64,000 nucleotides of DNA from Utricularia gibba. Taxonomy: Eukaryota > Streptophyta > Magnoliopsida > Lamiales > Lentibulariaceae. Position numbers and translations under genes: made by a program. The notes beneath the pieces are model-generated. The model did not search any database. It had not been told where the DNA came from and was given only the letters and a program-made list of their open reading frames with translations. Below are positions 26,713-61,174 of this stretch, in pieces (the first letter of the stretch is position 1; each line of letters begins with the position of its first letter). Location: the NCBI GenBank assembly GCA_002189035.1, contig NEEC01000021.1, positions 1,612,001 to 1,676,000 on the forward strand. Reading direction: 5' to 3'.

Positions 26713-27365
26713 TCATGCATCTTCACTCTTATCGTTAATGCGAAATCCAGTCTGAGATTTCGATCGCCTTGTTCTTGATGGCAAAATGTTGTTCAAATCA
26801 ACCTCAGCAAGTGGATCTTCGTCCACATCACTGCCATCGAGCCCATCAGAGAAATCTCCATCAGAGTCATCACTGGAATCATCAACGTCATCATGATCGT
26901 CATTCTGGCAGTCAGAATCTTCATCTTCTGAGTCCTCCATCATTTTTCCCTTTCCCTTCCTATCTACAGCTATCCCTTTCCCTTTTACATCAACCCTTCG
27001 TCTCCCCCATCCACATCTTCGTCTTGCTCAACACTGTAGTCCTCTTCATCCTCCTCATCATCATCATCGTTTTCTTCTAGGAAAGCATCGGCACCGTGGA
27101 GATGACCCTCTTCCTGAGGCAAAGAACCATTCTTTTCATCAATATTGTACTTCTTATTGGAAGCCGTTTCCTCTGGTTTCTCCAAATTCTCACCGGAGTC
27201 CGGAGACAGAGTTCCATTCTTCTCGGCTAAAGTTTCTTCTATCTTCCGTCTCTTGCCTGAGCCCGCACCCTCCGCTTCCGGCACTCTGCTCAAAGAAGTC
27301 GACCTATCGACCTTTCCCTCCCCTGAAAACTCCTCGCCTCCTCCAACGGATTTCACCTCCACCAT
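26713..27365 (-). CDS. Chz1-type histone chaperone, frame interrupted at 27004-27008
   Basis: Acidic nuclear protein that ends in a CHZ motif, known in yeast Chz1 to bind H2A.Z-H2B dimers. The start MVEVKSVGGGEEF is followed by a Lys/Arg patch GKRRKIEE (nuclear signal) and long Asp/Glu runs (EENDDDDEEDEEDY). The C-terminus reads DPLAEVDLNNILPSRTRR, the CHZ box. The two halves are in different frames. The upstream frame stops at 26985-26987, but the downstream frame runs back without a stop through RRVDVKGKGIAVDRKGKGK, a conserved plant segment. Adding one base in the run of five C at 27004-27008 joins them into 217 residues. There is no room for an intron. I read this as a sequence error. Confidence 0.8.
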
Positions 27366-27610
27366 TGGTTTCTGGGTTTTGTGAATTAGGGCGTTGAATT
27401 TACGGCTACCCAGTAGACATGAAAACCCGCAATTACCCCCGTGCTGAAGCGAGAAAATAATAAGAATAAAAAAGACAACTAAAAATCCCTAGTGAGAGAA
27501 TTTGCATCTCTTTGAGATCTTCGCAGAAACCTAGATCTGCAGCAACGATTTGCGATTCATATGTTTGAAGCTTCGCTCCGTCGATTGGTGGATTAGTGAA
27601 TCATTTTCAA
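27366..27610. promoter_or_regulatory. Shared (bidirectional) promoter, Chz1-like / SEC31
   Basis: Only 245 bases separate the two start codons, which face away from each other. The segment must hold both 5' leaders and both core promoters. No clear TATA box is visible, as is common for housekeeping pairs. Confidence 0.55.
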
Positions 27611-30600
27611 ATGGCGGGGTGCATAAAAAGTGTTAACAGATCGGCAACAACGGCGTTCGCGCCTGGAGGAGGCTATGTCGCCGCGGGAACGATGGCTGGG
27701 GCGGTTGATCTGCAATTCAGCTCGTCAGCCAATCTGGATATATTCGAACTCGATTTCGTTTCCGATGATCGCCAACTTAGATTGGCTGGTACGGTTCCTA
27801 GTTCCGAGCGATTCAATCGGCTTTCGTGGGGGAAGGGCCCTTCGGATTCGGAGGAATATGCCGTTGGTGTCATTGCTGGTGGACTTGTTGACGGAAGTAT
27901 TGGACTCTGGAATCCTAAACACTTAATCGGGTGAGTCCTCGTTATAAATTTTTTGTGGTATGGCCTTCGGAGATCTTGTTTTCTTTCTGCGTTCTTGATG
28001 CTAAATTCTATTGCGTAATGGATGGAAGTTATCCTGTTAGCTGTTTTTTAGGGTATACACAAATCACAAGACGTATTCTGCATGTTCCAGTCAGCATTTA
28101 AAAAAGATTGTCACAAGCCTTCTTAATGTATTTCACCCCATCTATTAAAATGGTTTCACTGTTGTTTCTGGACATTGCTGCAAATTTTATATTCTTTGAT
28201 AAGTATATGTATTACGTTCTGGACCAACTTTTTGTTCTCATATGATGCTATTTGTTTTTAATCCGGACATTTTGTAATTATCACGAGGAAGGTTTCTTAT
28301 AGTCAAAGCGTATGCTTTCCTTTGTTGTAATGGTCAAGTTTCATCTTTATTTTTTTGTTCAATTTGACAACTCTGGCTCTTTAATCCTCTTTTCCTAACC
28401 TAAGTTCCACTTTTTTGCCGCACTCATCTTGTTTTGCATGCATTTCCTTTCTAGTTATACACTTTTTTTCTTTTCTTTTCAGTTCTGATGTTAGTAAGAA
28501 GGGTTCTGAAACGATGGATAGTGCTTTGCTGTCAACTCTTTCACTGCATCGAGGACCTGTAAGTTTCTTCTTTTTTGGGGATGTACATGCATTTATCCAG
28601 TAATTGTTGGTTTCAAGCGTTTCTTTGTTATTCATTTGTGTGTCTCAGGTGCGTGGCTTGGAGTTTAATTCGCTTTCCAATTCCCCAAAACTTCTTGCCT
28701 CTGGTGCGGATGATGGCGAAGTTGTAATATGGGACTTGTCCAAACCGTCAGAGCCAAGTCATTTTCCTCCATTGAGGGTGGGAGTTTTGATAAAATGTCG
28801 AATTTATTCAGTTTTCAATTGGCTTTTCAAGCTTACTTTTATTTTATTTTTATCATTGTCTCGCTAGTTACGGTAAGTATTCTTGCTCCATTATGCATAT
28901 TTAGAATTAAATTGTAGGTTTAGGCTTCTTTAATATCAAAGAGTTCAAATTGTTTATATTCTTATTCAACTATTTTCAGGGCACTGGGGCTGCAGCACAA
29001 GGAGAGATTTCATTTTTGTCATGGAATAGTGTGGTTCACCATGTACTCGCGTCCACTTCATTTAATGGGGTTACTGGTAAGAAGTAGAAGGCTTATCAAT
29101 CCTTACTTTTGTAGCTCACGCTTTGGCTCTTCCATAACAATAATTGTTCTTCACAGCGGTGTGGGATTTAAGGAAACAAAAGCCTGCTATAAGGTAATTT
29201 ATTGCATGGCGAACATATATTGTGCTTTTATTTTTTCCAACTCTCAGCTTGCCTGATGTTTGACATGGCCCACAGTTTTTCGGATCCTGTCAGAAGACGG
29301 TGCTCTGTTTTGCAGTGGCATCCGGATGTTGCTACACGGCTTCTTGTTGCTTCTGATGAAGACAACTCTCCATCTCTGAAGGTAGGCACTACTGCGTATC
29401 TTTTATTGGTATCAAGACATGAATTGTGGTTATATTGGATAAGACAATGGACCGTGTTTTTACTTCAGATGTGGGATATGAGGAATATACTATCTCCAGT
29501 GCAAGAGTTTGTGGGGCACACCAGAGGTATGTTAGAGCTCTTGGGATTTACTTACAATAAAAGTCGTCAATATTAGTGTTGGTTACATTGTTTTCGTATT
29601 TTAATTGCTTCAATAAATATTCCCATGCTCAATACTTAATGGTGTTTTCTATGTTACGGCAGTGATGTGAACTGAAACTCAATTTTATATTTTTTGATGT
29701 GCATCAGGTGTGATTGCCATGTCTTGGTGCCCATTTGATAGCTCATATCTTCTAACCTGTGCAAAAGATAACCGTACCATTTGTTGGGACACAGTGTCTG
29801 GAGAGGTAATTTTAGTTCATTGCAAGGCAAATGCCCCAGTTATTCATATTTTGCATAAATGCTCTTGTTTTCTTAATAGTTTCTGTTTATGCTTAGCAAC
29901 GCATCTATTTACCCTTATTATGATTTTTCAGGTTGTTGTTGAATTACCTGCTGGGTCCAACTGGAATTTTGATGTACATTGGTATTCCAAGATTCCTGGT
30001 CTGATTTCTGCATCTTCCTTCGATGGAAAAGTGGGAATTTATAACATAGAGGTATTTATTTGTGAAATAGCACACGTTAATGCACTTTTATGTGTAATTT
30101 AGGATGCAGTTGGCTTTTTTTGTTAGTTTTTTTGTTTCTATGCAGTGTGCCTATGGGCTTATAGTTTCATGAATGCGGTGTTCCAGTGCCTTCTATGTAT
30201 TTGAATCTGTCATGTGCTCATTTCTTTTCAAATTTATTCAAGCTGTAATTGTGCCACAAATGATTTAACCTCAATTCCTCTAGAAATTTTGGGCCTTCCT
30301 TTTTACAGTTGTTTCATTTATGCTGTGGATCCAGGGTTGTGGTCGATCTGTTAGTGGAGAGGGCAATATTGGAGCAGGTATTTTCCGATTCACAGAATAA
30401 AAGCGTATGTTAGATTTTGTTGTGATTTCTTCATGAATTAAGTTCATTTTGCTGTTTTAAATTGCATTTAAATACATTGCAAGCTTGTCAACATCCAAGG
30501 TTTTACTGACATTGGCCATCTTCTATGCCCTCTTAGATACGAACTTACTGAACTAGCCTGTTCAAGTTTCGTGTTACATATTGATTTGTAAATATCCCTT

Positions 30601-33600
30601 TCTTTTCTCAACAGCACCACTGAAGGCACCAAAATGGTACAAGCGAAGGGCTGGAGTTTCATTTGGTTTTGGCGGAAACCTTATTTCGTTTCAGTCTGTT
30701 GGATCTCCTGCTGGATCTTCAGAGGTGCAAGCCAAGTTCTGCATTTCTTGAATTGTTCCACACCTTTTGGTTATTTATATATATTTATTTCTTTATCTAG
30801 GTCTATTTACACAATTTGAAATTGGAGAATGATCTGATCAATCGATCTTCAGAGTTTGAAGCAGCTGTGCAGAGTGATGATTCATCCGCCCTTATAGCTT
30901 TCTGCGAAAGGAAATCCAAAGAATCTGGGTATGAAATCTTCAGTTTAAACCCTGTCACACTTCTGGTAGTCTGCGTGTTGATTTAGGAATTTCTTTTTGA
31001 GCAATCATCACTTTTCAGGTCTGAGGAGGAAAAGGAAACATGGGCTTTCATCAAGGTTATGTTCAATGAGGATGGGAGTGCAAGGTCAAAGTTGCTCACA
31101 CATCTTGGATTCACTCCACCTGCAGAAGAAAATAATACTTCGCATGATGACATTTCACACCAATTAAGTGCTCTTGGTTTAGATGACACTGCAATCGTTA
31201 AGGGGCTACTGTAAACAGAGAAGCAGTGCTTCTTGACAACGGGGAAAGTTTCTTTGATAATCTCCCAAGCCCTCGGGTAGATACTCCTTTGTCAAGGACC
31301 AGCAATGAATTTATTCATGAAGACCCTGTTCCTAAAAAAGAGCAAGAAGACATACATGAAGAGAGCTCCGATCAATCTCTTGATGATGCTGTTCAGCGTG
31401 CTTTAGTTGTTGGGGACTACAAGGGTGCTGTCGCTCAATGTTTTTCTGCTAATAGACTAGCTGATGCCTTGATCATTGCTCATGCGGGAGGAGTGTCCTT
31501 GTGGGAGAGTACACGCGATCAGTACCTGAGAACAAGCCGTTCTCCCTATCTAAAGGTCATCAAGTACCTATTTTGCTATCCTTGAAATTCCCTTTATCAT
31601 TTTTTCATTTGTTGATATTTTAATGTTTAATCTGTTTTTTCAGGTTCTTCACTCCATCGTAAACCATGATCTCATTAGCATGGCAAACACCAGACCTTTG
31701 AAATTGTGGAAGGAAACACTTGCGTTATTTTGTGCTGTAAATCTCTTCCCTTGAATTATAAATTGCGTTTATTACCCTTCTCATGTGTAATTGTAGCATA
31801 TTTGTGATGTATCTATCAACAATAGTGTATTTTTTCTGTTAACTTGAATTACTGTTACACAGTTCGGGCAGGCTGATGAATGGACGCTACTTTGTAACAC
31901 ACTGGCTTCTCGTTTGTTGGCTGCTGACTATACAACCGCAGCTACACTTACTTATATATGTGCCGGGAATATTGATGAAACTGTGAAAATCTGGTCAAAG
32001 AATTTGTCAAAAGAGCATGATGGGAAATCCTATATGAGCCGTCTCCAGGTATGTGTGTAGCTGCTATTGGTTCTCTGATCATTATTTGCACTTGGATGAG
32101 CAGGGTCTTAGAAGTGTCATTTTTATTCAGGATTTGATGGAAAAGACAGTCATATTTGCTTTGGCTTCTGGTCAAAAGCGTAGTGCTTCATTATCTAAAC
32201 TAGTTGAGAAATATGCTGAAATATTGGCGAGCCAAGGGCTTTTAACTACGGCAATGGATTATTTGAATCTTCTTGGGACAGAAGACTTGTCAACGGAACT
32301 TCGTGTTTTGCGTGATCGTATTCTTCGTTCAACAGAGCAAGGTCCATCATTCTCTGCGAAGTTGCTTTCTTTTGTTTGCTGGATTCATCCTGATAACATT
32401 AATTACTAATATTTTCCCTTATGTCAAACGTCATGCTTTTCCTCTTAAATGTCTTCCGTTTTTTTGTCATTGAGATAATTAGTTCAATACAAACATGTAT
32501 CGATATTTCATGTGTTTGATTGATGTCTTTTGACAGAGCTCTGATTGGCATCATTATTAGTTATTCAAGTTCAATGTGCCGAAACAACTTTTTTATATGA
32601 TAATCTACCTCACTGGTAAGGCAAAATGCTTCATATAAATACTAACGTTCTACATATGCAGAGCAAGAGCCTGAAAATGTTGCAGCTGGAAATAGTCAAC
32701 TCGTAAATGGACTTGCACCTGGTTATCAACCGAGTTATGGACACCAGCATTATTATCCGGTATTTTTCCTCATTTTAATCACTGGAAATATTTATGTTTC
32801 ACGAATGCATCATATTTTAATCTGCGATAGGACTCAACGACAACCCAGCTGCAGCCAACAGTGCAAGCAGCTCCTTATGCTGATCCATATCAGCGAGCTA
32901 CTGCATATACGCCTGTTTCTCAGCCATATCAATCACAGCCTTCAATATTTATGCCGCAGCCCGTAGCCCCAGCTCCAGTGGTACAAGACTTAAATTGTCA
33001 TATTTTCCTTCACGTGTGCTGTGTTCATGTGCTGCTTGTCACCTTCATGCAGGGAGCAAATGTCCATCTTCCTCCTGTCAATACGCAGCCCCCTGCGAAA
33101 TTCGTGCCTGCAAATCCTCCCATGTTACCAAACGTGGATCAATATCAGCAGCCATCCACACTGCATTCTCAGTTATATCCTGTATGCTGCTTGACATTGG
33201 ATGTATCTTTTACTTGTAAATTTGGTCTGAATCATGACCTTTCCCCTGTTTATAATATAGGGTACTGCCAACACTGGGTATGCTCGTCCTCCTCCATATG
33301 GATCTACGAATCCTCAAATTGCCCCAATTCCAGGTCAACAAGTCCCGTCTTCTGTGCCACCTGTACAATTCACTACAGTGAATAATCCAGGGGTCCAGAG
33401 ACCTGGCATGAATACAATGCAACCTCCCAGTCCAAGCCGGTCTGCCACTCCAGTGCAGCCACATGTTGCTCCCGCCACACCTCCACCTACAGTGCAGACA
33501 GTTGATACTTCAAGTGTGCCTGGTAAATCTTTTCTACGCATGGTCTGCGGGGAGACTTCATATATCCATTCCTTTGATGTGCTGTATTCGTTAGCTGACT

Positions 33601-34041
33601 TTTATCTCTACAAAACTACAACAGCGGAACAGAAGCCTGTTCTTGCAACATTGACTAGGCTTTTTAATGAGACAAGTGAAGCATTGGGGGGAGCACGAGC
33701 CAATCCAGCAAAGAAGCGGGAAATAGAAGAAATGTCAAGGAAGTTGGGAGCCTTGTTTGCAAAACTCAATAGTGGAGACATATCAAAAAATGCATCCGAG
33801 AAGCTCATACAGCTCTGCCGTGCGCTTGATAACAGCGACCTTGCTACTGCTCTCCAAATCCAGGTGCGAAGAAGGAACACCATATCTACCTTGTTCTTGT
33901 CTCATATGTTTTCCACTTCCCTTCAACCTAATGTGATGAGATGATACGCAGGTCCTCCTCACCACAAGCGACTGGGAAGAATGCAACTTCTGGTTAGTGA
34001 CGCTAAAAAGAATGATCAAAATTAAGCAGAGCATGAGATAA
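27611..34041 (+). CDS. SEC31: SEC31, outer COPII coat protein; frame interrupted at 31202-31205
   Basis: With SEC13 it forms the outer cage of COPII vesicles leaving the ER. Exons: 27611-27930, 28483-28558, 28649-28777, 28980-29076, 29157-29193, 29276-29381, 29469-29526, 29708-29805, 29932-30051, 30335-30377, 30615-30724, 30801-30928, 31019-31555, 31644-31736, 31863-32048, 32131-32341, 32662-32759, 32831-32980, 33053-33181, 33261-33522, 33625-33863, 33952-34041. The N-terminal WD40 propeller starts [18 protein letters not shown]. Next come the alpha-solenoid ([19 protein letters not shown]), the Pro/Gln-rich linker that binds SEC23, and a helical C-terminus. Exon 13 reads to a stop at 31212 in one frame but continues as [15 protein letters not shown] in the next. 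One extra G in the run at 31202-31205 restores 1105 residues and correct exon phase. Confidence 0.96.
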
Positions 34042-34446
34042 AGTTACCAGTAGCCCCTGGCTATGCAATGCCAGATGTCCAGAATCCGGTGGCTCATACA
34101 TGTAACACAAGTGGCTTGGTATGGATAGATTTCCAGATTCTTGGTCTTCGTCTCCATGTTTTTTATTTTTCTGGTTTAAACATCTTCTGGGTTCTGCCAT
34201 ACGAAATACTCATCTGGGTTTTTCTCCCAAGGAGTTTGCCTTCAACATTTATTTGTGTCGATTGCATGACCTTTGTTTCTCAATTGCTGTTTTATTCCAG
34301 TGTAGGTTCCTCAAAACATTGCTGTAACTGCCCTCAGCCACTTGCTTAGTTCTAACATCATTATTACTGACATTACAAAAGGGATTTCAGTTGAGTTCAA
34401 TTCAATTCAATAGCTACCAAAGTCGTGTAGGAAGTGAAGGCAGGGG

Positions 34447-36444
34447 TTATCTTTGAAACTGCCTGGGGACCCTTGGTGTGGGTACGACTCCAGCACGACC
34501 CGATTTCAGGAGCTCCAGCCGGTCCTCGATTGTCTTGTCGAATGTCCGGTTCTCCGGATTCTCTGCATAGCAAACGTAGTAGCAGGCAACACAGGCCTGA
34601 GGCAACGCCATAGCAATTCTCGTCTGCAATACAACAAGATGCGCATTTCATTCTCAACTCCCAGAACCAGAATCGTTGGACAAGAGGGGATGGGGAACCA
34701 ACCATGAGGTATCCGATGAAGGCGGCGAGGGCGGACAGGGAAGCCAGGTAGCTCCGGTAGATGGCGGATGTCCAGGCAGCCACGGCGATGGTGCATATGG
34801 CACCGCTGCAAACTCCCGTCAGGAAGCAAATGGCGCTGGTTATGTCGGAGTCGACTATCTCCACCATTTCGCGCTTCTGGAAGAGCTCCCATGTGTCCTG
34901 TGATGCCTTGACGAACCCCTTTCCATAAGCCGCAATCTGAAACAGGGTCTCATCTCACATCACATCATGCCGCTCTCAAGAGTGATGTGATTGCAAGCAA
35001 TTCCTTACCTGAACATAGGCCCAGCCATTCCCTCGGCTGAAAATGGACTCCATGACGTTTAGACAACAATGAGCACAGGAGAACAAGAACTCGTCTTCCC
35101 CCTCGATGAGATTCAGTCCCCGGGCCACAATCCGGAGTGCTTCAATGGCGGGAACGAACAACGATCCCAGGCTTGCACTCCCAAGATTTCGTGTTACCGC
35201 TCGTTGGAAGGAGAAGTGAGTGCTGGACTGCATCCCTCTGAGGTAATAAAGAGCCATCACCCTGCTGACAGTAACGTTAGAGACATTCCTCATCACCTCC
35301 GCTGTCCAGGCCAGGCTTAGAATCAGTGCTATTATAACCAGCGGCGGGAGGAAGAAATTCAAGGATCCAATAACCGCAACAATCCATAACGACATCCATA
35401 AGAATCCTGCTCCGAGCATGTAGTAAGTAGGATGATTCAAGTCCCGGAATTTGGGTACAGGTTCAAGAGCCTTGATGAGTATCTTGGAGCAAAAGCCTGC
35501 TCTTTGTGATACCCAGCAAGCATATAGCCCGTTACCGATGGAGAAAATGATGAACAGGGCTCCCACGGCATTGGCTGCTGGAATCTGGAAGCAGATCAGA
35601 AGAATCCCTGCGGCTAAGGTGAGCACAAAAGAGCTCCAAATGATGAAATGGACCATGAATTTTGGCCACATTCGCACGGCCTTCTGCCAGATGAATGCCA
35701 ACGTAATGCTGAGAAGAGAAGCAACTTCAACCTGCGGAAGGAAGTACCTGAGCACTCTCTGCTCCCTAATCCGTGTCCCCTGCTGCACCATTGCTTGAAC
35801 TCCTTTGAATATCAAGAATCCCACCAATCCAACCACTGAAACAAGATGTACCACGAACAAAACCAGAGAGACCTTGTCCGTGTAGCACCTTGCGTTCAGA
35901 GAAACCACTAACTGCCGCTAGAGACACACACAAACACACAGAGAAACAGTAAACACACCATGAACAAGCAAGATAATGTGCAGACAGAGGTTGTTTCATT
36001 TACTTGTTGCGACGGGGCAGAGTAAGGGTCAGCGGACTGCGGCGGTGGCGAAGGGGAAGGGGGAGATTGGTGGCGAGGTGGCTGCATAAGAGAAGGAGAA
36101 ACGACGCGTGTGCCGCTATCCATGACGAGTCTCAGCGGATTTGTGGCGCTCAACCTCTGCATTCTCGACACGCCGTTTCCGGTATCCGGAGGAACAGATT
36201 GCACCGTTTCCTCGCGATTTGTCGTTCTCCCCCTTTCCAAATCCTCAATTTCTTCTTCCCTTCGTTCATCTTCGCCATTTCCTCGCTCCAGTTCTTCCTC
36301 CCCAATTACTTGCTCCGATTCCTTCCTCCTATCCAACACAACCTACACGTACCAGCAAAAACAACCAAATTGGGGCACAAGTGAAACCGAAGCTGGGTTG
36401 GTGGAGAGAATTGACGATCATACGGGTTCATCAGCAGAAACCAT
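34447..36444 (-). CDS. Choline-transporter-like (CTL/PNS1) membrane protein, 5 exons
   Basis: Multi-pass membrane protein of the choline-transporter-like family (PF04515 type); transport activity of this plant branch is not firmly known. Exons 36444-36424, 36342-36004, 35917-35009, 34936-34703, 34623-34447 give 559 residues. The N-terminal ~115 residues are acidic then Pro/Ser-rich (cytosolic), followed by about ten hydrophobic helices. Family phrases include NVTVSRVMALYYLRG, FQRAVTRNLGSASLGSL and CYAENPENRTFDKTIEDRL. The first coding exon is only 21 nt (MVSADEP). I infer it because the next exon has no upstream in-frame ATG, a stop lies just before its acceptor, and GTATGA/TGTAG junctions fit. 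Otherwise translation would start at Met in VSRMQRLSA. Confidence 0.9.
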
Positions 36445-37063
36445 CGACGACTGCGGGCGGCGCGTGTAATCAATCCCTCTTTCTGGTTCTAGAATCCGGT
36501 GAGGCGCCCCCAGTTCCGGCGATGGAGGCTACTCCGACACGCGCTGTTGTGACCGTGGAGAGGCGCATATCCAAACAGCATTCTTTTACACAAGAGGGAA
36601 AAGTGGTTTTGTCTATATCTGCGGAGCCTGAATTGTGTGCTCACAGGTCCACGTGCACCAGCAGGCCTCCACTTGTCACGTGCTTTTCTTGGAATTTTGG
36701 CGAATCTTTTTTTCCTCATATAACCTAAGCTCCTAGACCTAGAGTGGTGCAAATTAGGCCTATTAAAGGCATCTTTTCTGTATTTTTTCACCCAATAAAT
36801 AAATTAAAAATGTGTGTTTTAGGAGTGGGATAATCAAATTGAGGAAACCTTATAATCATACAAAAATACACGTGTGTTACTGCATTTATGGGCCTTCTGC
36901 GCGAGGACTCACTAGCCTAATTATTTGGGTCACAAACCAATGTAAGGCCCAAGATAAAAAAGCCCACTAGCAGCAGCTCCTCTATCTTTCTTTAAAAATT
37001 TGGATATGTTGGTCTGCCTGCACGTCGAGTTATCTCCGGTCATTAATCACTGCCAATCCTCCG
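36445..37063. promoter_or_regulatory. Divergent upstream region, CTL gene / RPL1
   Basis: 619 bases between two divergent start codons. The middle is AT-rich (about 36770-36880). No distinct element was fixed. Confidence 0.4.
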
Positions 37064-42446: not shown

Positions 42447-45400
42447 TCAGCAATAGAACATTACCCTCTTAACGTTTTCTCGCAGCGGAGGCAGGGCTCT
42501 CACAGCAGCGCCACTGGAGCCTGCGCCTCTTGTGCTTCGTGAACCACCAACACTACTGCCACCACGACCTGCGGCAGCACTAGACATGGAGCCACTTTCC
42601 GAGGGTTCAGGCTCCATGTAGAACCGAGCACGGAATGCAGCAAGGTGGGCGTAGTATGCAGGAGGCACTGCAAACCACAACCACAAAGATTTCAAATAAA
42701 CGAATAGATACAAGAGGCGCGCCAATGGTCAATAAGACAATAACTACATACCAATGGAAACGGAGCGCGTACACCTTGCATAGCTGTAAAGCAAAAAACA
42801 ACGGATTATTGAGAATGACGACAACGATTATGCAGTGTATTCACGAGCAGATCTCACGTGTAACACAGGTTGTTCGTTAAAGTCTGCAGAGCATCGGCTG
42901 TAAACTTGTTTTCATCCCACAAGACATGATAATGTGCAGGGCGACTAGTACCCTGTAATTACAAGTGTGAGACGGTCTTGTGCCAAAAAATTATAATACT
43001 TGAGAAATCGAATAGATAACTACCTGTATGCCAGCATGGCTGCACAGGTAGAAATCAAATTCAGTAGGATGACAGATCTTTGAATCCACGACAGTGCCTG
43101 CAGCAAGATTACAAATGCCATAAATATGCCACTAGTCACTGGATTTGCATTAATAAAACAAGAATAGCCTGCTGAAATATACCAGGTAGAATATTTCCAC
43201 TTTTATCAACTGAACGTTTGTCATTGTGATTGTTTGCAAACAAGCGAGTATGGTGCCGCTTCTGGACTACAACAAATGTAACAGTAGGCTGGTAATTTGA
43301 TTCCAGGGATGCACATGCCTGAGATTGGGTAAGTCCAAAATCACTCAAATGAAGTCATTTACATACAAGTCACACTCAAAGAAGCACAAAAAAAGTTACC
43401 TTGCGTATAGCATCAAGTTCATAAAGTAAAACTTGATAAAACTGCCCTTCACTAACACCATCCCTGAGAAAAGAACACAACAAAGAAAAAGTAATGTTAT
43501 CAGCAACAGACATGCCCATATTCCAGCCGTCGTGATGCTGAACTCAGAAGTGCCAAATTTATCACCGATAAAATATAATTCTTTGAGGTTTCTGCCCAGT
43601 TGCTTTACGGAAGGATATAAGCAGCTCCCTGCCAATTCGAAAAAATACAATACTTCAAATTACAGCATGTCACCATGCGAAACAAACAAAATAAACACTG
43701 TAAATTGCTTGAAAATTAAACCCCACTTTATCATGCCACCATGCATTGTCCCCTTGACAGGATCTTGCCATGTTTTGTACAAGTCTTTTATGAGCTCTTG
43801 CCTATGTGCCTGGGCTGATACTAAACCAGCGTATTTTGTGACCTCAGGCCAATCTTGAGATGCAACCACCTTAACAAGGAAACAAAACTGGACTATAAGA
43901 AAAAAAAACTCAAAAAACTGCAAAATTTAAGAAAAAAAAACGCAACATATCAACATACTGCTGCAATCGATGGGCTAGCGTCCTCCCCAGGATGCGGGTG
44001 TGTAACATCAGCACCAAAAATGATAGTTGGCCGTTCACTGACAATAGGTATGCACCGTGAAATTGCATCACGAAGCACTGTGTTCCTTCCTCCAACCTTC
44101 ACATTAATCTTCAATGACACATTGGCAAGGTACTGCTTGTTCAGCTTGAAAACGTGTTTCTGCAGACAACATTGTGAAACAATGCCGAGTTCTGTTTCAC
44201 AAATACGCTTCAAATCACCTGAGGATATCAGAAGAGTTAAAACAAATAGCTTCACAAAATTGCGATTGATAAAATATGCATACCATATAGAGATCCATTG
44301 TTGTCTGGAAGCAGTACAATTAGCAAGTCGAGCTCCTTCCTATCAGGTGGCAACCTTTGCATTGCATCATGGTATCTTGCCTTGAGAACTTTCTCAAGTT
44401 GATCCGGTTTTGCAGAGATAACAGGCACGATAGGATCAGGATTAAACTCCTGCAAGAAAACACAATCTTTTCACCCCCGAAGGTATAAAAAACCAGACAC
44501 AAATTTACTTACCATTCCAGATGTAATGCACATTTGGACAAGTTCACGGCAGAAATTGCAAGCAGCAATGTTTTGTATACTCCTTGCAAAGTTAATGCAA
44601 GTCCAAGAGCTTACTGTGCCACCATTTACCACCCGCTACATCATATCACGCACAAAAAAATAATATCAAACGTAACATTCATAGAAAGCGCTTAACCGAT
44701 GCAATAAAAAACTACCTTGTTCATCATATTCCACTGCCCCACGATTGGAAGACAGTCTTTTTCTCCACCAGAATCATGATATTTGAGCTGGAAAACACAC
44801 TTTTAGGATTGAACATAGAAATAAGATAGGACTGTAAAAAATCCAAAAAATGACTTCATACTTACCCAAGGAGGACGCAAAACGCGAGCTTCAACTTGGG
44901 CTAAATCCGGGCTAATTTTTATTCCAAATTCCTTAGCATATTTGTCGTTCGCGTAACAATTGTGTTTTACAGTCTATTTGAAATTAGACAAGATTATCAG
45001 AATAATTCAATTATTTAGGGGCAACTACCATTCATATGCAAATAAAGGCAACTAACATTGTATATCTCCTCCTCCCTCTTTTCAGGCCGCTGGCAAGTGA
45101 CCTTCAACAGGGCAGTGATCTGTTTTTCACTTAATCTCTTAGAGTATCGTTGACCTTGGACAATCTTGCACACCTGAATATCCCAGAGAAATAATATCAA
45201 CATGAACACAATGCACTTTTATCAGATGAGGAAGTAACACAAACCTCCATAGGCAAATAGTTGGGCCTCTGAGTGCTACCAACTTGAAGACATGGCCATT
45301 GTGTGTGCTGAATAACAAAGCCATAAGTCTCACGGAAGTATTCAACCACAGACTTCATAGTTCCTCTTTCATCAACAGGAAATCTAAACAACAAAATCCA

Positions 45401-47206
45401 TTCAGCGCCAACAGACACAAGAAACTGGCTAAGAGTTAAGAAAAAGAAATATATTCAAAAGAGCACTGTTGCTAATGCATGTCAAAGAAGCACAACAGCA
45501 ACAACTCTCATCAAATCGCTCAAAGATATCTGATCAATACTTGAGAAGTATAATGAAAATAATTGCAAAACCATAACTAAATAAAAAAAAATGGGCGTTA
45601 CGTTAATTCTCGTGTTGCTTGAGAAGTTAAACCAGAGATGCGGTACTTTCTCCGCATATTCCCCCGGTGAGTAACTTCAACTTTAATGCCTCTAAGAGCC
45701 TTTTTTATCTGAAAAATAAAGGAGCAAAGAGTGTCATCAAATTTTGTTCAACAAAAACATTGAGAAGCACATACGGAAATTATCTCTCACCTTTACACGG
45801 TCGGCATCAGACAAAGGTCTGCCTGAGGCATCCCTATTCAGCAACTTTGCAACAAAATCAATCACTGGAAGTGACTCGATAAATGCGGTGGATGACATGT
45901 CTATCCAGGAAAATGGAAATGTTAGCTTGAAAAATCAACATTAGAACGTACTGGACACAATGAAAACTCACCAATATTCAAAGACAAGCCCATCTGTGTG
46001 GGTCGAATACTTTGGTAAAAACCACGCCAACTTTCGAGTCCGTCCCCTAAGGTCTGCTTTGTACCCAAGTAGGGGAATAAAAGGATCGGCCGACTGGACA
46101 ATAATTGGGACTGACATGATCATGAAAAAATTTAATTTCAGGATTAGAAAATAGCTGGAACTAATATTCAACAAATACCTTTTGGTGGGGAGTTCACGTA
46201 AAACAATGTCCAGGACCTGCAAAGCCTCCTGAGGTGCATCCGCTTGTCTTCCTTGTAAAAACATTGCCAAATGATGCAAGTCAGCACGCGCTGCGAACTT
46301 TATCACCACCTTGAAGTCCCTATCCCTCCTGTATTCAAGACTTGAATATGTGAATATCAGCATCTTGAGTTGCAACAAGACTAAGAAAAAGTGGTGTGTG
46401 TTTACTAAAAATCACAAAAACCTCGCACTGCCTTGGCCATCATCTTCATCAACTAGGGTGATCTTGAACTCCTTTAAAACAAAAGGCAACGGACCTGCTG
46501 TATAAAGACTCTTCCTGCCATCATAAGCAGGAAGCCTTTCTCCCAAGTGAGATCCTTGGTACAGGTCCACCAACTGCTGAATGACAGCTCGATTCACCCC
46601 ACGTGATGACACCTCAGGCGTAATTGTGACCTGAAAACCAATTATCAATTTTAATAGTATCAAAATACAAGGTCAAATGACGTGAAATAATGCTAAAGAG
46701 AAACACCTTACATCATATTGATGAAAGTCCTTGTCAGGCAACTCAGCAAAGAAGTGGTTGGCCTTAACTATGCATCTTGTACCTCTGACACCTTTCCCTG
46801 GCCTCAATTGGAATCTCATAGACTTGCTTGATGCAGGTTGCATCTGTTGCTGCAGTTGAATTTGATGCATTGGATCCGATAACTCAACATCAGCAGGTCT
46901 TGGGTCATGAGAAGAACTCGCTCCTCCATATGCCTGCTGCTCAACGGCAGACTGTGTAGCTTGGTGCAGGTCCGGAGCTGGTGGTCTAGATGACCCACCA
47001 GCAGCCTGATACTGTTGTGCAGGCCATCCACGGCCATCTCCACGGTACCCTCCCCGTGAAGGGCCCCGGCCTTGACCACCATATTGTGGCTGCTGGGACT
47101 GCTGCTGAAATGAAGGGGGCTGAACACCACCACGGCCACCACTAGCTCTCTGAGACTCGGATCCCTCACTGCTTCCAGCGTGGTCAGTTCTTTTCTTCCT
47201 CACCAT
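42447..47206 (-). CDS. AGO1: ARGONAUTE1, 21 coding exons; frame interrupted at 46072-46075
   Basis: Main miRNA effector slicer of plants. Exons: 47206-46712, 46630-46422, 46328-46179, 46110-45972, 45900-45791, 45708-45602, 45383-45245, 45173-45057, 44973-44866, 44787-44716, 44635-44513, 44449-44284, 44218-43959, 43869-43727, 43628-43566, 43463-43400, 43318-43183, 43097-43024, 42952-42858, 42783-42752, 42667-42447. The Gly/Gln/Arg-rich N-terminus starts [18 protein letters not shown] and PIWI domains follow. Slicer residues are visible: Asp in [15 protein letters not shown], Asp in [15 protein letters not shown], and His in [19 protein letters not shown]. It ends [10 protein letters not shown]. 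In exon 4, [10 protein letters not shown] and [19 protein letters not shown] lie in different frames; one more base in the four-G run at 46072-46075 joins them, restores exon phase and gives 1007 residues. Confidence 0.96.
46957..46977 (-). promoter_or_regulatory. miR168 target site in AGO1 mRNA
   Basis: The plus strand reads TAGCTTGGTGCAGGTCCGGAG here, compared with mature miR168 TCGCTTGGTGCAGGTCGGGAA as I recall it. Differences are at positions 2, 17 and 21 only, and positions 3-16 are identical, spanning the cleavage site between 10 and 11. The AGO1 transcript (minus strand) therefore carries the conserved site in exon 1, in codons for APDLHQATQ. This is the known negative feedback of AGO1 on its own level. 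Confidence 0.93.
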
Positions 47207-51242: not shown

Positions 51243-52528
51243 ATGGGGTCTCTCTCGATTCCACTATGTAGCGTCGTGGAAGACAAGAAACCGTCAGAGC
51301 CGAAACTGGATCCTACCCATTTGCTCGATCTCTTCAAATGTCAGCAGAAGTACATCAACTATTTCTTCCAGAATCTCGATCTCTCCCAGACGCTAATCTT
51401 CACGCAGACGCTGTTAGAAGCTAAAGGCACCATTTTTTTCTCCGGCGTGGGGAAATCCGGGTTTGTGGCCCAGAAAATTTCGCAGACACTCGTTTCCCTC
51501 GGGATCAAATCTGGGTTTTTATCCCTGTCGACGCACTTCATGGCGGTATCGGCATTTTGTCGGCCAAGGATTTGTTGGTTTTGTTCAGTAAGAGCGGCAA
51601 CACGGAGGAACTGCTGAGGCTTGTACCCTGCGCCAAGGCGAAGGAAGTCTATTTGATTTCTGTGACTTCGGTTAAGCCGAATGGGTTGACGGGTGTTTGT
51701 GATCTGAATGTGCATTTGCCGCTGGAACGTGAGCTTTGCCCTTTTGATCTTGCGCCGGTGACATCGACCGCGATTCAGATGGTTTTTGGAGATACAGTGG
51801 CGATTGCACTCATGGGGGCGAGGAACTTGAGCAAAGAAGAGTATGCAGGAAACCATCCTGCTGGGAGGATTGGTAGAAGTTTGATTTTCAAGGTCGGAGT
51901 TTTATCCTTTTACCTCTTTTGGGTGGAGATTTTTCTGAGGAAACATTGATCATACATGACATCATCAATGCATTTGGTGGACGTGACTTTCTAGAAAAGA
52001 AAGTCGCAGAAGCTTCCATCTGAGATCAAGACTTCCAGTTACTGCATTTCTGTTTTGGTCAAGTCCTTTTCTTATGACCTCAATCAACAGGTAAAGGATC
52101 TTATGAAGAAGGAAGAAGAGCTCCCCATCTGTAGGGAACATGATCTAATCATGGATCAGCTGGTGAACCTGACAAGCAAAGGCTGCGGATGTCTTCTTGT
52201 CGTAGACAGAGAGTACCATTTGCTGGGCACGTTCACCGACGGAGATCTACGACGAACACTGAAGGCCAGCGGCGAGGCAATCTTCAAGCTGCAAGTTAGA
52301 GAAATGTGCAACAGGTATGCTGACTGAAGCAAATATCAATGATCCTTGAGCTAAAAGGGGATCGATTTCAGGAACCCGAGAACCATACACCCGGAGGCGA
52401 TGGCGGTCGAAGCAATGCAGAAGATGGAGTCTCCTCCATCACCGGTGCAGTTTCTGCCGGTCGTCAATGGTGACAACGTGGTGATTGGTATCATTACATT
52501 ACACGGCTTGGTCTCTGCCGGACTCTAA
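51243..52528 (+). CDS. SETH3: Arabinose-5-phosphate isomerase (KpsF/SETH3 type); frame interrupted at 51523-51525
   Basis: Interconverts ribulose 5-phosphate and arabinose 5-phosphate, feeding Kdo made for pectin rhamnogalacturonan II; Arabidopsis SETH3 is needed in pollen tubes. Exons 51243-51892, 52091-52314 and 52372-52528. A SIS domain ([45 protein letters not shown]) is followed by two CBS domains ([57 protein letters not shown]). After LGIKSGFLS the frame breaks: the expected DALHG...[16 protein letters not shown] is one frame over. One more C in the run at 51523-51525 restores 343 residues and an in-phase exon end. Confidence 0.95.
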
Positions 52529-52850
52529 TCCCCCGTCGGAAAACTACATCTTTTTGTTACAGGGAGTGAAAGTATTTGACCTATCTCTTTCTGGCAGTCT
52601 ACTCCAGAAACAGTGTGTTAGTTACATTACAGAAAAAGCCATTAAAGCAAAAATTTCCACATAAATCTTTCCGTGACTTGGAACAGAGCAGAATGAAACA
52701 ACAAGAATCAATGAACTTCATTCATACAATTGAGTGATGGATGGGTATACAGAACTCTAAACCAAACCTCACGAACACATTTCTATCAGCTTTCTTTGGA
52801 GGATTATGCAAAGAATCAGTAGTAGGGAAAAAATGAGAATCTTGTATGTT
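52529..52850. other. Short intergenic between converging genes
   Basis: 3' untranslated sequence of the isomerase (+) and the methyltransferase (-). Nothing else is seen. Confidence 0.6.
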
Positions 52851-53582
52851 CTAGTATTTCTTCTTGCGGTAAACAACTTCCGTATCCAACCCAAATCCAT
52901 CTATTTCTCTTACCCCAACAAGCTCTGAACTTTTGAACAATTTCTTCAAAGGCTCCAAACTGTACAAGTCATTGGCCGAGTACTTATCCGCCCGCCGGGA
53001 GATCAGTACATGAAGAACGCATATGCCGCCGGGTTTCAGCGTCCGCTCGATCTCGCCAACAAACTTCCACGGATAAAGCGCGTGATCGAACACATTCGAG
53101 AACTCGAAATCGAATGTCCCATCATCAAACGGCTGGTGATGAAAATCCCCCTTCAACACCAACGGCGGCGACGGCGCGAGATCGATCCCAACAGAATCCT
53201 GAACTCCCACCCGTTTCAGGGCCGCAACCTCCTGCCCGACCCGCGCACCTATGCAGAGTGATTTCGATTCGTTAAACAGGAGACGCCTCTGCTTCAAGCT
53301 CTCGAAGAATCGTGAAAAGACCTTAACTTTCCGATCCCAATCTCGGGTCTTCCACACATCGCGCAGCTTCGGGTTTAGGGTCTTGTTGAGCTGCCGCTGG
53401 ATGTATGCGTCGTAGGACTGATATCCGGGCCGGATCTTGAGACCCGGAGGTAGTGATGGCGGCGAATGCGGCGGGTTTTTGAAGGAGAAGAGGGCGAATA
53501 AAGATACGCCGAAGAGGAAGAGGGCGAGGAACAAAGGCTTGAGGAAGCCATTGATGGGCAGTTTCTGAAGATCTGGAATCAT
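52851..53582 (-). CDS. Membrane-anchored SAM-dependent methyltransferase-like protein
   Basis: Single-exon gene, 243 residues. The N-terminus has one hydrophobic segment (LKPLFLALFLFGVSLFALFSF, residues ~14-34) after a short basic-poor lead, giving a type II membrane topology, then a Pro-rich stem. The C-terminal part is a class I methyltransferase fold: SLCIGARVGQEVAALK is a variant SAM-binding motif I (Gly-Ala-Arg in place of the usual Gly-x-Gly), followed by SVGIDLAP, DFHHQPFDDGTFDFEFSN and RTLKPGGICVLHV. Substrate unknown. As I recall, the Arabidopsis counterpart lies next to the STICHEL-like 2 gene, as it does here. Confidence 0.85.
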   Translation of the reverse strand: MIPDLQKLPINGFLKPLFLALFLFGVSLFALFSFKNPPHSPPSLPPGLKIRPGYQSYDAYIQRQLNKTLNPKLRDVWKTRDWDRKVKVFSRFFESLKQRRLLFNESKSLCIGARVGQEVAALKRVGVQDSVGIDLAPSPPLVLKGDFHHQPFDDGTFDFEFSNVFDHALYPWKFVGEIERTLKPGGICVLHVLISRRADKYSANDLYSLEPLKKLFKSSELVGVREIDGFGLDTEVVYRKKKY

Positions 53583-53809
53583 ATCTCCGCAACAACCCCA
53601 CCCAGAAGCGGAAAGAAGAGTCCGATAAAGACACGAAATTTCTTTCAGAAGAGGCTAAGAATTTGTATTAGTGAATAATATAGGGCCTGAAATAAATTAT
53701 TTTTCCGGTGTGAAATTTGCAAAGTTTCCCATCACAATTTGTTATTCGTAAATTGGCCTCACAATCTAACGAAGCAAATGTTGCAGCAAAGGACTGTTAC
53801 ATCATCGTA

Positions 53810-56800
53810 CTACTCTAGTGCAGCAACAAGATGCTTGTCATACTCATCCAAATGATGGCTTCTTCCCAGAATTCTTCTCTGCAATACCTGCAGAGAAATA
53901 AGCTCCTGATTTGGTGAGGGTGATAGGGAGGGGAGTTTGAATGGAGGGACATCACCTTCCAAAGAGGAAATGCAGTGGTCTTGCAGCAGTGTAACTTGAA
54001 CAACTCCCTCATACTGCTGTGGGCAACACAGAATCAGGGAAGTGAAACCAATCAAGTTTTGGATTCCTAGACATTGATTATAGAAACGAATTTCTACTTA
54101 CCCACGTTTGGCTTCATCTCTGGAGAATTCTCCATTAGCTTCGTGGGATCCCGCCATATCCTGTTTTGCTTCACACTCTGCACTTGTGCTGATTGCCAAT
54201 GCGTTCCCATTGCTGTCCCGGATGATCTTCAGAAGCCCTTTTCCATGGCAGCACGACGGGCAGTGTGTTTCAGGACAACTAGAGCCACTTGGCATGATAC
54301 CAGGAGATGAATCCGAGATAACTGATGAAGCATTGCTCCTACTACTCTGAGAGGCAAACTGTGACATGAGATGAACTCTTCTTGAGCAGTTAAACAAGCA
54401 GAACGTTGGCTTCTTCAACTGCCCATTTCTGCTGGAAGAAATACCAGCAAGGTTTACCCTCAGTTCCACGTTGTACCCCACCACCTGCTGTAGCGCACCA
54501 GCTATTACCTTCCATGACTTTTCAGCCTTCGCAACATAATCAGGGAAATCAAATTCTAGTTCAGCCACTGCTATTCCTGCATCTGAAGAAGAAACTTCAA
54601 TGAAGCAGTATGACGTTTTGCAGAACCCTCATTAGTATCTTTCTTCCCGTGGTAGGAATCAATGGTAAGGTTAGGGAAGAGTTACCATGGGCGATGCGAA
54701 TGGATACCAACTTTCCCCTTTTCTGGAGGAACTTCTTGAGGGAGTTGACTGTGCACAACTGAATGGCTCTCCTCCAAACAAATTCAAGAGTCTCTATGTC
54801 ATCTTGCAAACCAATTCCCGTTTCAATATCGTCAGAAGCATATGGGAAGATATGCTTTGAACTTTCAATGGTTGAAGATGTTCTCTGAAGGTTTCCATCT
54901 GCATAATCCAACTTCGACTCAGATAAAGGAACAAATCACCAGACTTCTCATCAAAGGATCAATGAGCTGCAAAGCTTGTTATTATGCTCACCTTGGCATG
55001 GTGATCTCACGCTGAATTTTGGACCATTAACATCGTGAGGAGATCCAACAGAGCTTAGCTGGAGAAGGGTTGCAGTGAGCCAAGTGATTTGATTCTTTGA
55101 AGCTCTCAACTGCTTCTCAGCTTGTGAGAGCATCTTCAGTGCCTGACTTAGCTGCTGCACATTGGCTTCAGCTGTTGAGGAAAAAAAACCATGCACAAAT
55201 TGAAAAGGTCAACGAAACTTCGAATACATTAATGGAATTGGGATTGAGAAACTTACAGACATCACTACCATAGACATTTGATGCCGGGCACACTTCTCCA
55301 TCTGTAGATTTTCCAGCAAGAATGTCCATTATGAGGTTGGCCAACTGTGCTATGAGTTGTAAAGGATCTATTCTAGAACTCATTAGCTCTCTGGCCTTCT
55401 TTACAGTGTTTGCAGCATCACGCGACAGAGCAGTGTGCAGCAAATCAAGCAATTCTTCATCAGAGACAGCCCCAATCTGCAGAGTGTTCAATCTAGACAA
55501 CGACAACGATAAAAAATAAAAGGTAAGGCAGGCTGATGAATTTGATGCTTACAAGTTCATGAACCAAAGGCAGAGTGATCTTTCTTCCAAGCAAACTCAG
55601 TTGATCAAGTGTCATTTCAGCATCGCGAAGTGAACCATTCGATTTTGCTGCAATGAAGTTAAGAGCTTGCTGATCGAACTCGAGGCCTTCTACAATACAT
55701 ATCTTATTCAACATTCTAGCAATTTCACTTTCTTCAACCTTTGAAAAATGAAACTTCAGAGCCTTAGTTACGACTGTCTGAGGGAGTTTGTCAAGGGTAG
55801 GAGCGACCATCAAGAAAACCACATGACGAGGGAGATCATCAAGAGAGGTCATGATAGCCGCCCATGCTTTTCGAGATAACATATGGCATTCTTCAAAGAT
55901 ATACACCTTAAATCTTGACTCAGTCGGAGGGATTCCAATGTCCTTGATGAAGCATTTACACTGCTCGAGTTTATTCACTCTCCTTGGCTCGATATGCTTA
56001 ACATCCCTACTCCTTCCTGAAAACAGCTTAGTACATTCTCGGCAACGACCACAGGGTCTGTTAACCTCATCAGAGAGACAGTTCAAGGCAGCAGCAAATA
56101 CTTTCGCCACTGATGATTTCCCTGTTCCACTTGGGCCGTAGAAGAGATACAAAGAAGATATCTTCTGATGAGAAATCGCACTCATCAGAGACGCTGCTAC
56201 ACCATTCTGCCCCACCAATTCCTTAAATGACTTTGGCATAAACTTTTGGCATAGATTTCTAGGACTTGCATTAGACACTGTACCCCCCTCATGTAGCACT
56301 AATTGTCCAGAATTTCCTAACAGTAGATTCCGTTCTTCAGCGTCATAGTCTCCAAACTTACTATTCCTTGACCAACAACTGCTTAAACCGCAGCCCTGAT
56401 GACAAGAATCCATGATAGCATCTCTGTTCCGGTAGGCATTAATCGAAGCTACAAGCATTGATCGTTGTCTCATAGGTTTACCAGTTGACAAGCAGGGACT
56501 TCCTGTGCAACTCATAACATCACCAGCTTTAGCTCCAAACAATGTGTCAAGCTTCTTATCCCAATCTCTGCACGTGGAATCCGTACACAGTTCCTTCTCC
56601 AGTTGACTCACTATTTCATCATGTTCATCACATGAAGCTCCACCTTCTTCACAATCAGCACCAAATGTCAGGCCATAATCCATCACATTTTCTTCATGCT
56701 CCATTTTTACATCAGAGATGGTAGCAGGCAGCGGCCTCGAGCCGAAAGACAGTTTATAGTCCGTCACCTTCTTCTCTAATCCTCTCCATCTCTGACCATT

Positions 56801-56968
56801 GGTTTCCTCTCCAAGAAGTCTATTTTCTGTTTCCAAATTCGAACTCTCGACTAAGGCTGAAAATTTGCTCATCGAGTTAGTCTCAGGATCACGAAGTGAC
56901 CTCACTCTCCGAAGTGCCACCAGTGTTTTAGTTATCGGAAGATCAATAGAATGGCGGCGGCCATCCAT
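53810..56968 (-). CDS. STICHEL-like AAA protein (DNA polymerase III gamma/tau-like)
   Basis: Plant AAA protein related to the bacterial clamp-loader subunit; STICHEL controls trichome branching, and this one looks like STICHEL-like 2. Exons 56968-55553, 55476-55257, 55171-54992, 54898-54686, 54582-54102, and a last exon from 54016. The start MDGRRHSIDLPITKTLVALR and the RVRSLRDP phrase are characteristic. The AAA core has Walker A YGPSGTGKS, zinc cysteines in CGRCREC, Walker B-like VYIFEECHML (Glu-Glu where Asp-Glu is usual) and a sensor region. Gamma-tau-like domain III follows. The last exon is uncertain: the in-phase reading (ending 53815) looks random, whereas a +1 frame (YEGVVQVTLLQDH..., ending 53810) looks protein-like; one extra G at the donor run 54101-54103 would select it. 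Confidence 0.88.
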
Positions 56969-57654
56969 TCCAACAAAATATTTTCAGATCCAGGAAACGC
57001 AGTAACAAATGCTGCAAGAAAACTTAAAACATGAACATCAAAGATTCAGATAACACATAATCAATGAGAGCAAAAAGGACAAAGGCACATGAAAGTTGAA
57101 ACTTAGGCATCAACATGAAGGTAACTCCCGTGGTCCATTCAATTATTGAACCACTTTCACTTCCACCAATCTAGAGTTCACCCCATTACAGCTATATCCG
57201 CCGATACATTGACGTTGGAAACAAATTTTAGTACCTTTGTTTCTTCTCAGAAGCACACAGCTGTAAAGCCGGAAGCCGGCGGGATACACCCAGAAAACAG
57301 AGCCACCGAGAAAGCTATCCAAAGCAAAACCGGCCAAGCATTTTCTACAATGTGGAAATGAGGGAAAGCGATGTGCAAAAACGCAGTCTTTTTGAAACGA
57401 AAAAGTCGGATTGAGCGAAAATGTCTGCTTTTTTGAAGCGATTTTTCCAAAGGAAACACGGGACCAAGAGCAGGAGCCTCTTCTCGCTATGAAAAAGAAC
57501 CCATTAATCGCATCTGTCAAGACATTCACCCGCCCTTGAAAATCAACACCACTGAAAAACAAGGTATATACTGCACGAGCAACCTCGGGCTGGGTGCTCG
57601 ACAGGGAGGTATGTTGCGACAGTAAATGTTATTAATGGGCAGGAGGGGTAAGCT

Positions 57655-57778
57655 GCATTGCTCATATTCAAATGCAAAGCAAAAGATTGTCTTTTTCCAT
57701 TCAAGAAGATAATCAGCATTGCTCATATTCAAATGCGAAGCAAATGATTTTGTCTTTATCCGCTGAAGAGGATAATCA
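57655..57778 (+). repeat. Direct tandem duplication, units of 61 and 63 bp
   Basis: Unit 1 (57655-57715) and unit 2 (57716-57778) both start GCATTGCTCATATTCAAATG and end in AAGANGATAATCA-like sequence. They differ by a few substitutions and two inserted bases in the middle. The units are directly adjacent, so this is a recent local duplication. Confidence 0.85.
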
Positions 57779-59577
57779 GAGGGCCGACATATTTGTAACT
57801 TGATTTTTTAATTAGGTTACTTGTTTGTACATTCAAATTCAGATTTCAGATGCAATCTCATCTCTTTTCAGGGCTTTACCCCATCCCTGTGGCTGTGTGG
57901 GTGTATGTGTATTTACCACTCCTTTGACTGCAAATTCAGACAGCGCTTTGGCCACATCTTCCTTATACCAGTCATGGCGTCTGGGCCTGCCTGCCTGCCC
58001 GCAGTAACATGAGTAGCAAAAACACCCGCGCCACCCTTTAAATTTGGTGAGCCGTAAATTTCTCCATTGCAGATAGTATGCAATAAAAAAAATAAAAAAA
58101 ACGGATCTTCAGCCTATTTTCATTGATGAAACGACACACTACGCAACATAATGTCGAAGTGATCTGCTCTGAATGGAGCAGGCAAAATTTACCCGCCTGC
58201 GTGAACAGTCACTGTATGGGCCTATATTTCTCTTGCATGCTGAACATCGCATGGCCCACACGTCGGCCCATTGAATCCCCTCCTTTATTTATTTTTTATT
58301 CTATCGAACATTTCTTTTCTTTTTTTTCGCTGAAAAAGTTGAATTTAAAAATCTGAAAAAGATCAATTTTTCTGTGCAGACAATCACAACAAGACATTAT
58401 GTTTTTCTTCCGGTCCAAAGCGGAAGTGCTCCCGCGCAGTGAATGTATTATAACTGAACAGTTGTTACCCAGAATCCATCCATCCATCCATCCCATCTCT
58501 GCGCTTGATTCCACAGACAAGTTACAGGCGGGGGTTGGTTGTCGTGGAAGAAGAACCTGGAAATTTTTCTGCTTAAAGATATGATCACAGAAATTCGTTG
58601 TGGTATGGGAGTTGCAATTGGGACAATCCTTCACTTTCAGCTGGTTGATTTAGAGTCCTCAGGACAACCATTTATGGCGGCACTGGCGCGATTCAGTTGG
58701 CGTTTTGGGGCCAACGCAACGCATGTGCTGTTGTTCTTTCACGTTTCCACGTTCAACGGGGAAGTCCCTGTTTCCATGCATAAAAACCCTAAAACCCCGC
58801 AAAGTCAAGATTCATGAATACATGCAAATTTTGTTGTTTCCTTGTTTATGCTGTGAAATCAACCCGATTGCCTTCATCGCAGACATATTTCGTGAACATC
58901 GAGGATACCAAAAAAAAAGAAAGAACTTTTGTCCGAAGATAACAACATTAATCTTAAAAACCATTTTTGAAAAGTTGGTGTTATGTGGCATGAATGAAAA
59001 GGGGGCTACTCCTTTTCCAAAGCAGAATAATTTGGCCCCATCCCCCAGGCGCATTTCCTTTCCATTCCCTGAACGCCGTGGTCAATAAGTCCCCTTGGAT
59101 TCTAGTTCTCCTTATCTGTTCAGGCGGCCACAATCCACCGGTCGGACGGGATTAGTATTAAAACAACAAATTTCATATCAGGATTTGAAATCGAAATAGA
59201 CAACTATATTAGAAATAATGTAATCTGTATTTATTATGTATTTAAGTTTTACATTATTCCACACATGCATCTTACACTTCATTTCAACAATTAGTAACAA
59301 TTAGTGGACACACAATCACACACACACAGAAATTAAAGCCTTAGTCAAGGGTCCGCTTTGCTTTTAGGGGAGTGGGAGTAATGACGGATTTATAAGGCTT
59401 CGACTTTTGTGTGTTGTTTTGCAAGGAAAGTGGCGATGGAGAATCTCCCTCATAATCTGGAGGGAATCCACCGACGCTCAGTTAATGGGGGCTCTCTCAG
59501 GGTAACCCACAAAAATCTTGGATTGCGGGGCCCATTCCCTCCCTTTTTTTTTCCATTAATTATACACAATAATTGTC

Positions 59578-59587
59578 ATTTATAAAT
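59578..59587 (+). promoter_or_regulatory. Possible TATA box of pectate lyase
   Basis: TTTATAAATT about 65 bases before the ATG at 59650, followed by a pyrimidine-rich leader (CTCCTCGCTTCCCTGCCC). Distance and sequence fit a plant core promoter. Confidence 0.45.
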
Positions 59588-59649
59588 TCCGGATTCCACT
59601 CCTCGCTTCCCTGCCCTGCCCTACCCGCTCTCTGAATCCTTCGTCTGCG

Positions 59650-61174
59650 ATGGAGAACCAACGCCTCCTCTTCCTCCTCCTTATACTTGTCTTCACGGCC
59701 ACCTCCGTCGCTGCAACTCGTCCAGATCCTGAGCTCGTCATTCAGGAGGTTCAGAGGAAGCTGAACGAGTCACGGAGGAGACTAGGGTTCCTGACTTGCA
59801 ACACCGGGAACTCCATCGACGACTGCTGGCGGTGCGACCCCAACTGGGAGCAGAATCGTCAGAGGTTAGCAGATTGCGGGATTGGGTTCGGGAAAGACGC
59901 CGTCGGAGGCCGCGACGGGAAGATTTACGTCGTCACGGATTCCAGCGACGACGACCCGGTGAACCCGAAACCGGGGACTCTTCGGTGGGGAGTCATCCAA
60001 GATGAGCCGTTGTGGATCATATTCTCCAGCGATATGGTGATACAGTTGAAGGAAGAACTCATAATGAATTCGTTCAAGACGATCGACGGCCGGGGCGCCA
60101 ATGTACATATATCCGGCGGCCCTTGCATCACTATTCAGTACGTGACCAACATCATCATTCACGGCCTGCATATACATGACTGCAAGCAAGGCGGGAATGC
60201 CATGGTGCGGGACTCCCCGAAACACTACGGGTGGAGAACGATATCCGACGGCGACGGCGTGTCCATCTTCGGGGCGAGCCACGTCTGGGTGGACCATTGC
60301 ACCCTATCCAACTGCGTCGACGGCTTAATCGATGCGGTGGCGGGTCGACGGCTATAACCATTTCCAATAACTATATGACCCATCACGATAAGGTCATGCT
60401 CTTGGGACACAGTGACGAGTACACAAAAGACAAGGGCATGCAGGTCACTGTTGCCTTCAACCACTTTGGAGAAGGTCTGGTACAAAGAATGCCAAGGTAT
60501 GCACTCATGCATGCACCACATACTGGTCAATCTGTCCCTGGGGTTTGGAAGTTGCAGGTGCAAGCCTGAACCTTGCCATGTTTTCAGGTGTAGGCATGGG
60601 AACTTCCACATAGTCAACAACGACTACACGCACTGGGAAATGTACGCGATCGGAGGGAGCGCCAATCCGACGATCAACAGTCAAGGGAATAGGTTTCTTG
60701 CTCCGGATGATGAATCCAAAAAAGAGGTTAGATGCTGAGTCTGACCAAATCTAGGATTGGGTAGGCGATGGAAGAACAGCAAAAACAAAACAACACAAAA
60801 AAAAAAAAACACACACACACACAGGGTTTTACTACGACAAAATATTGGTCAAAAAATCTAATAAATTATGACCTGCCCGTTACGCCAGGGCGCTCAAGTA
60901 AAGGGATGTACGTTAGGCAAATTCGGTTGACTACAAAAGTGTTGGGCGTGCAGGTAACGAAGCACGAGAACGCTTCCGAGAGCGAGTGGAAGAATTGGAA
61001 CTGGAGGAGCGACGGTGACTTGATGCTGAACGGGGCCTTTTTTGTTGCCTCAGGGTCTGGGTCGCCCGCTGCCTACCCAAGGGCGACGAGTATGACGGCG
61101 CACTCTTCCGCAATGGTGGCCTCCATTACTTCCAGCGCAGGCGCACTCGACTGTAAGAAGGGGCGCCCTGCTAG
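59650..61174 (+). CDS. Pectate lyase (PL1 family), two frame interruptions
   Basis: Secreted enzyme that cleaves de-esterified pectin by beta-elimination with Ca2+. Exons 59650-60496, 60588-60726 and 60954-61174. A signal peptide ([22 protein letters not shown]) is followed by the plant N-terminal motif [18 protein letters not shown] and the parallel beta-helix with [37 protein letters not shown] and [14 protein letters not shown]. Two breaks: after GLIDAV the [10 protein letters not shown] continuation needs one more G in the run at 60342-60344; and at the end one more C at 61166-61168 turns a read-through into CKKGRPC-stop, the usual C-terminal Cys. With both, length is 402 residues and all phases close. 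Without them the frame ends early at 60356 or reads into the poly-C tract. Confidence 0.95.

Follow-up and report, generated by a model that had tools for sequence, protein, structure and literature searches.

Five conserved genes are interrupted by six single-base frameshifts within one 64,000-nucleotide stretch of the Utricularia gibba genome (the window; C321:1612001-1676000 in a plant assembly of 100.1 Mb and 516 contigs), raising the question of whether the breaks belong to the plant or to the assembly. It was found that the six frameshifts are almost certainly residual single-base consensus deletions of a long-read-only assembly. The broken genes are false pseudogenes resulting from an error of a known kind, not a real biological feature, and the actual genes of the plant are most likely intact. 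This is supported by the single direction of the changes, their run context, their dependence on run length, their recurrence across the genome and the purifying selection that continues past the breaks. For the published U. gibba genome, PacBio reads at 88x were assembled using HGAP, within which Quiver is the polishing step, and the contig N50 is 3.4 Mb (PMC5793159). In the passages of two papers that cite it (PMC8333044, PMC10663240), the PacBio genome is attributed to Lan et al. 2017, and as described there it resembles the assembly examined here in its size of about 100 Mb and its multi-megabase contigs. The eight Argonautes of the assembly also form a pattern consistent with the published set of three AGO1, one AGO10, two AGO7 and two AGO4-clade genes (PMC8333044).

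A block homeologous to the window was identified on contig C1 (~3.654-3.714 Mb), with 71-85% DNA identity over the alignable parts and a Ks of about 0.4-0.9. Homeologs of four of the five broken genes (AGO1, arabinose-5-phosphate isomerase [API], CHZ and pectate lyase) are present on C1. SEC31 aligned there over its first exon only, and the remainder seems, judging by this alignment, to have been lost after the duplication. An earlier note made from the DNA sequence had proposed that exactly one base is missing at each of the six sites, and each was confirmed to be one base short. The CHZ-type histone chaperone gene (26713..27365, minus strand) carries a CHZ domain near its C terminus, and its downstream frame matches Pfam CHZ with an E value of 1.4e-4, slightly short of the curated cut-off. 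Its deletion site, GATGGGGGAGAC (26988..27011, minus strand), aligns with a gap of 1 nt on the window side to GATGAGGTAAAA of the C1 homeolog, which is a single open frame (C1:3656849-3657205); the lost base could be either A or G. The SEC31-type COPII coat gene (27611..34350, plus strand, end approximate) has a Sec16/Sec31-type TPR domain in the frame downstream of the break, with no Pfam match for the piece upstream. A search of the genome for a second full SEC31 copy found none, with one weak 29% match elsewhere. The site in this gene, AAGGGGCTACTGTAA (31197..31214, plus strand), is defined solely by the window's own two open frames, which join at a GGGG run within one exon.

The AGO1-type Argonaute gene (42447..47206, minus strand) aligns to Arabidopsis AGO10 (PDB 7sva) over 851 codons at 75% identity, with 21 introns and exactly one frameshift, whereas its C1 homeolog needs no correction in the same alignment. 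The site CCCCT_ACTTGGG (46064..46079, minus strand) has a 1-nt gap relative to the homeolog, which reads CCCCGGATTTGGG. The homeolog has the codon GAT here and AGO10 an Asp, so the lost base was probably an isolated G, with T before and A after it, adjacent to the CCCC run but outside it. In the same gene, near 46110-46182, the splice acceptor used on C1, CCCAG, is CCCAA in the window, and splicing to an acceptor further upstream instead lengthens the product by two residues, giving KSPNYCPVG in place of KRYCPVG. The API gene (51243..52528, plus strand) has Pfam SIS and CBS matches as well as matches to phosphosugar isomerases in PDB, and its break, TTTTTATCCCTGTCGACG (51516..51533, plus strand), lies within the SIS domain at a position spanned by the alignment to solved SIS-domain phosphosugar isomerases; the C1 homeolog is broken likewise at TTTTTATCCCCGTTGACG. 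The pectate lyase gene (59650..61174, plus strand) belongs to a family of at least 22 genes, shares 84% identity with its C1 homeolog and has 1-nt gaps relative to it at two sites. The first, GCGGTGGCGGGTCGACGG (60334..60351, plus strand), was also recovered using a different paralog as the query, and at the second, GGGGCGCCCTGCTAG (61160..61174, plus strand), the frame of the C1 homeolog ends KGVRC-stop. Elsewhere in the window, the Rab11-type and plastid L1 genes needed no correction, nor did MsrA when set solely against its own translation.

Single-base deletions were sought beyond the window using a purpose-written protein-to-DNA aligner that allows frameshifts and GT-AG introns, with a sample of 22 pectate lyases, 8 Argonautes, HSP70 pieces, API, SEC31 and CHZ from many contigs. 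One of 28 raw deletion calls, at SEC31 position 174, was rejected as a query error, the exon being absent from the query. Across roughly 17,155 aligned codons, to which four HSP70 pieces contributed 449, this left 27 single-base deletions, and no insertion was confirmed; within the window, the claim that insertion errors are absent was likewise upheld. Three other events were scored, of which one (L077) is a net -1. The other two, in an AGO10-type (L070) and an AGO1-type (L073) gene, were rejected as frameshifts and are likely GC-AG introns. In-frame stops were found in only one of the surveyed genes, a divergent AGO. Pectate lyases carried 15 deletions in 8,033 codons, not counting the window's second site in the last codons, and Argonautes carried 3 in 6,725, or about 1 per 1.5 kb and 1 per 7 kb, respectively; at least one deletion was present in 9 of the 22 pectate lyase genes. 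The HSP70 pieces were excluded from these rates because they had been picked after a family scan showed breaks in them. Three of the four cytosolic HSP70 pieces are 95 to 99% identical to the query on either side of the break, and the fourth (L079) is 74% identical. A further HSP70 copy, on the small contig C241 (31 kb), was dropped as an independent check because it is uninformative, C241:16550-18560 being 100% identical over 2 kb to C304:2235500-2237500; C241 is probably a redundant contig. Tubulins, viewed in the family table only, showed no clear deletion-type break.

Deletions were concentrated at runs of G or C, as 24 of the 28 raw calls had a G/C run of at least 3 no more than 4 nt away, compared with a background of 21.7% (P = 9e-13), with no enrichment of A/T runs near the same calls. 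Estimated contraction rose from 0.3% of true G/C runs of 3 to 6, 17 and 40% of runs of 4, 5 and 6; these fractions are rough because they attribute every lost base to whichever G/C run lay nearest, and the length-6 figure comes from small numbers. A gene-model-free count over 217 kb found G/C runs of 5, 6 and 7 at 0.77, 0.59 and 0.49 of the dinucleotide expectation; A/T runs of 5 or longer, by contrast, exceeded it. The window contains a G16 run (4048-4063) and a C15 run (61193-61207), yet no G/C runs of 7 to 14. The suggestion in the earlier note that the errors are confined to homopolymers was thus borne out in part: five of the six window sites fit loss from a G/C run, as do most sites in the genome, but the lone G of AGO1 and a few events elsewhere (L063, in a T-run, and L082, at CCGG) do not. 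Long-read errors are recognized as deletions only, concentrated in homopolymers with a frequency that increases with run length, and distributed genome-wide irrespective of gene function, and the events found here follow this pattern with few exceptions, occurring in pectate lyase, AGO, HSP70, API, SEC31 and CHZ genes alike. Consensus calling would drop one base in or beside short G/C runs, and would do so more often as runs lengthen; PacBio chemistry together with the HGAP polisher is the presumed source, and accurate reads would be expected to show the missing base.

Fractionation has occurred, given the duplicate block on C1 and its apparent lack of most of SEC31, and it could be argued that the broken genes are real, recent pseudogenes arising after whole-genome duplication, with one copy decaying while its homeolog serves. 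Decay of this kind yields insertions, longer indels and stops, none of which accompanies the breaks, and C1 copies are themselves broken, API once and pectate lyase twice, as are HSP70 genes 95 to 99% identical to the query. Nor is selection relaxed, since Ka/Ks beyond the breaks, calculated between the window and C1, is 0.07 to 0.10 for API, 0.08 for AGO1, 0.12 for pectate lyase and 0.11 for CHZ; the downstream frames are under strong purifying selection. Recent pseudogenization is therefore very unlikely, and the proposal of long-read consensus error rather than gene decay is sustained by the genome-wide deletions and the run-length trend as well as by Ka/Ks values of about 0.1. The accompanying description of the genes as essential and single-copy in type proved incorrect, as AGO1, API, CHZ and pectate lyase have homeologs and the pectate lyases are a large family; the conclusion of artifact survives because it rests on the other evidence.

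The API homeologs are broken at an identical codon (TTTTTATCCCTG in the window; TTTTTATCCCCG in the C1 copy, L010:1493-1510), and for this break the sole biological alternative is a true frameshift that predates the duplication and is read through by programmed -1 ribosomal frameshifting. The break common to both homeologs, the strong constraint on the downstream frame (Ka/Ks of 0.07 to 0.10) and a T-rich stretch before the site are compatible with this. However, the in-frame sequence G UUU UUA departs from the canonical X XXY YYZ heptamer, no stable downstream structure was predicted (z of +1.5 and +0.1 relative to shuffles, with pseudoknots outside the model), and the run context matches that of the genome-wide errors. 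A real API frameshift in both homeologs, translated by -1 frameshifting in a nuclear plant gene, is thus extremely improbable. The shared deletion is best explained by recurrence at an error-prone run: given the first hit, the chance of a second, independent one is about 6 to 17%, which is not improbable, as this is the contraction estimated for runs of 4 to 5. A comparable recurrence was seen in the pectate lyases: three paralogs reading GGGCAT all have the break at one conserved Gly codon, while three others, with GGGC, are intact. The API deletion in both homeologs and the few events away from G/C runs count against consensus error, and that reading remains close to certain with both taken into account.

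That some of the breaks are unrecognized introns or wrong gene models is true of a STICHEL-like site and of the two GC-AG introns first scored as frameshifts, but has a negligible probability for the six sites, which lie within exons carried across by a homeolog or a solved homologue or, in SEC31, in coding sequence uninterrupted on either side. The STICHEL-like gene had been put forward as a possible seventh frameshift, which was rejected because a canonical 93-nt GT-AG intron (54899..54991, minus strand; CAAG|GTGAGC...TATGCAG|ATGG) closes the frame when removed. The donor and acceptor motifs of this intron recur in a paralog on C3 (L047). There, the counterpart of the intron is an open frame, and its retention would therefore give an in-frame insertion.

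Errors of PacBio continuous long reads assembled with HGAP/Quiver likewise remove single bases within or next to homopolymers and thereby produce false frameshifts, and a homopolymer single-base deletion has been found in polished PacBio genomes and corrected using Illumina reads (PMC5797582). Unlike in that known case, the density here is high in GC-rich coding sequence and biased toward G/C over A/T. No report of indel errors in U. gibba was found in the literature searched. For users of the assembly, this serves as a warning for annotation: about 1/16 of four-base and 1/6 of five-base coding G/C runs are apparently one base short, and at this density of errors, any tally of pseudogenes, split genes or lost genes has to be backed by short reads or transcripts. 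The published truncation of DCL3 in U. gibba, for which the authors used 5' RACE (PMC8333044), was considered as an instance of the same artifact, and the domains of the locus did not support this. The DCL3-like locus (C213:2761967-2762970) has two RNase III matches and no Dicer_dimer match nearby, fitting the published truncation, whereas each of the other three paired RNase III loci has a Dicer_dimer match.
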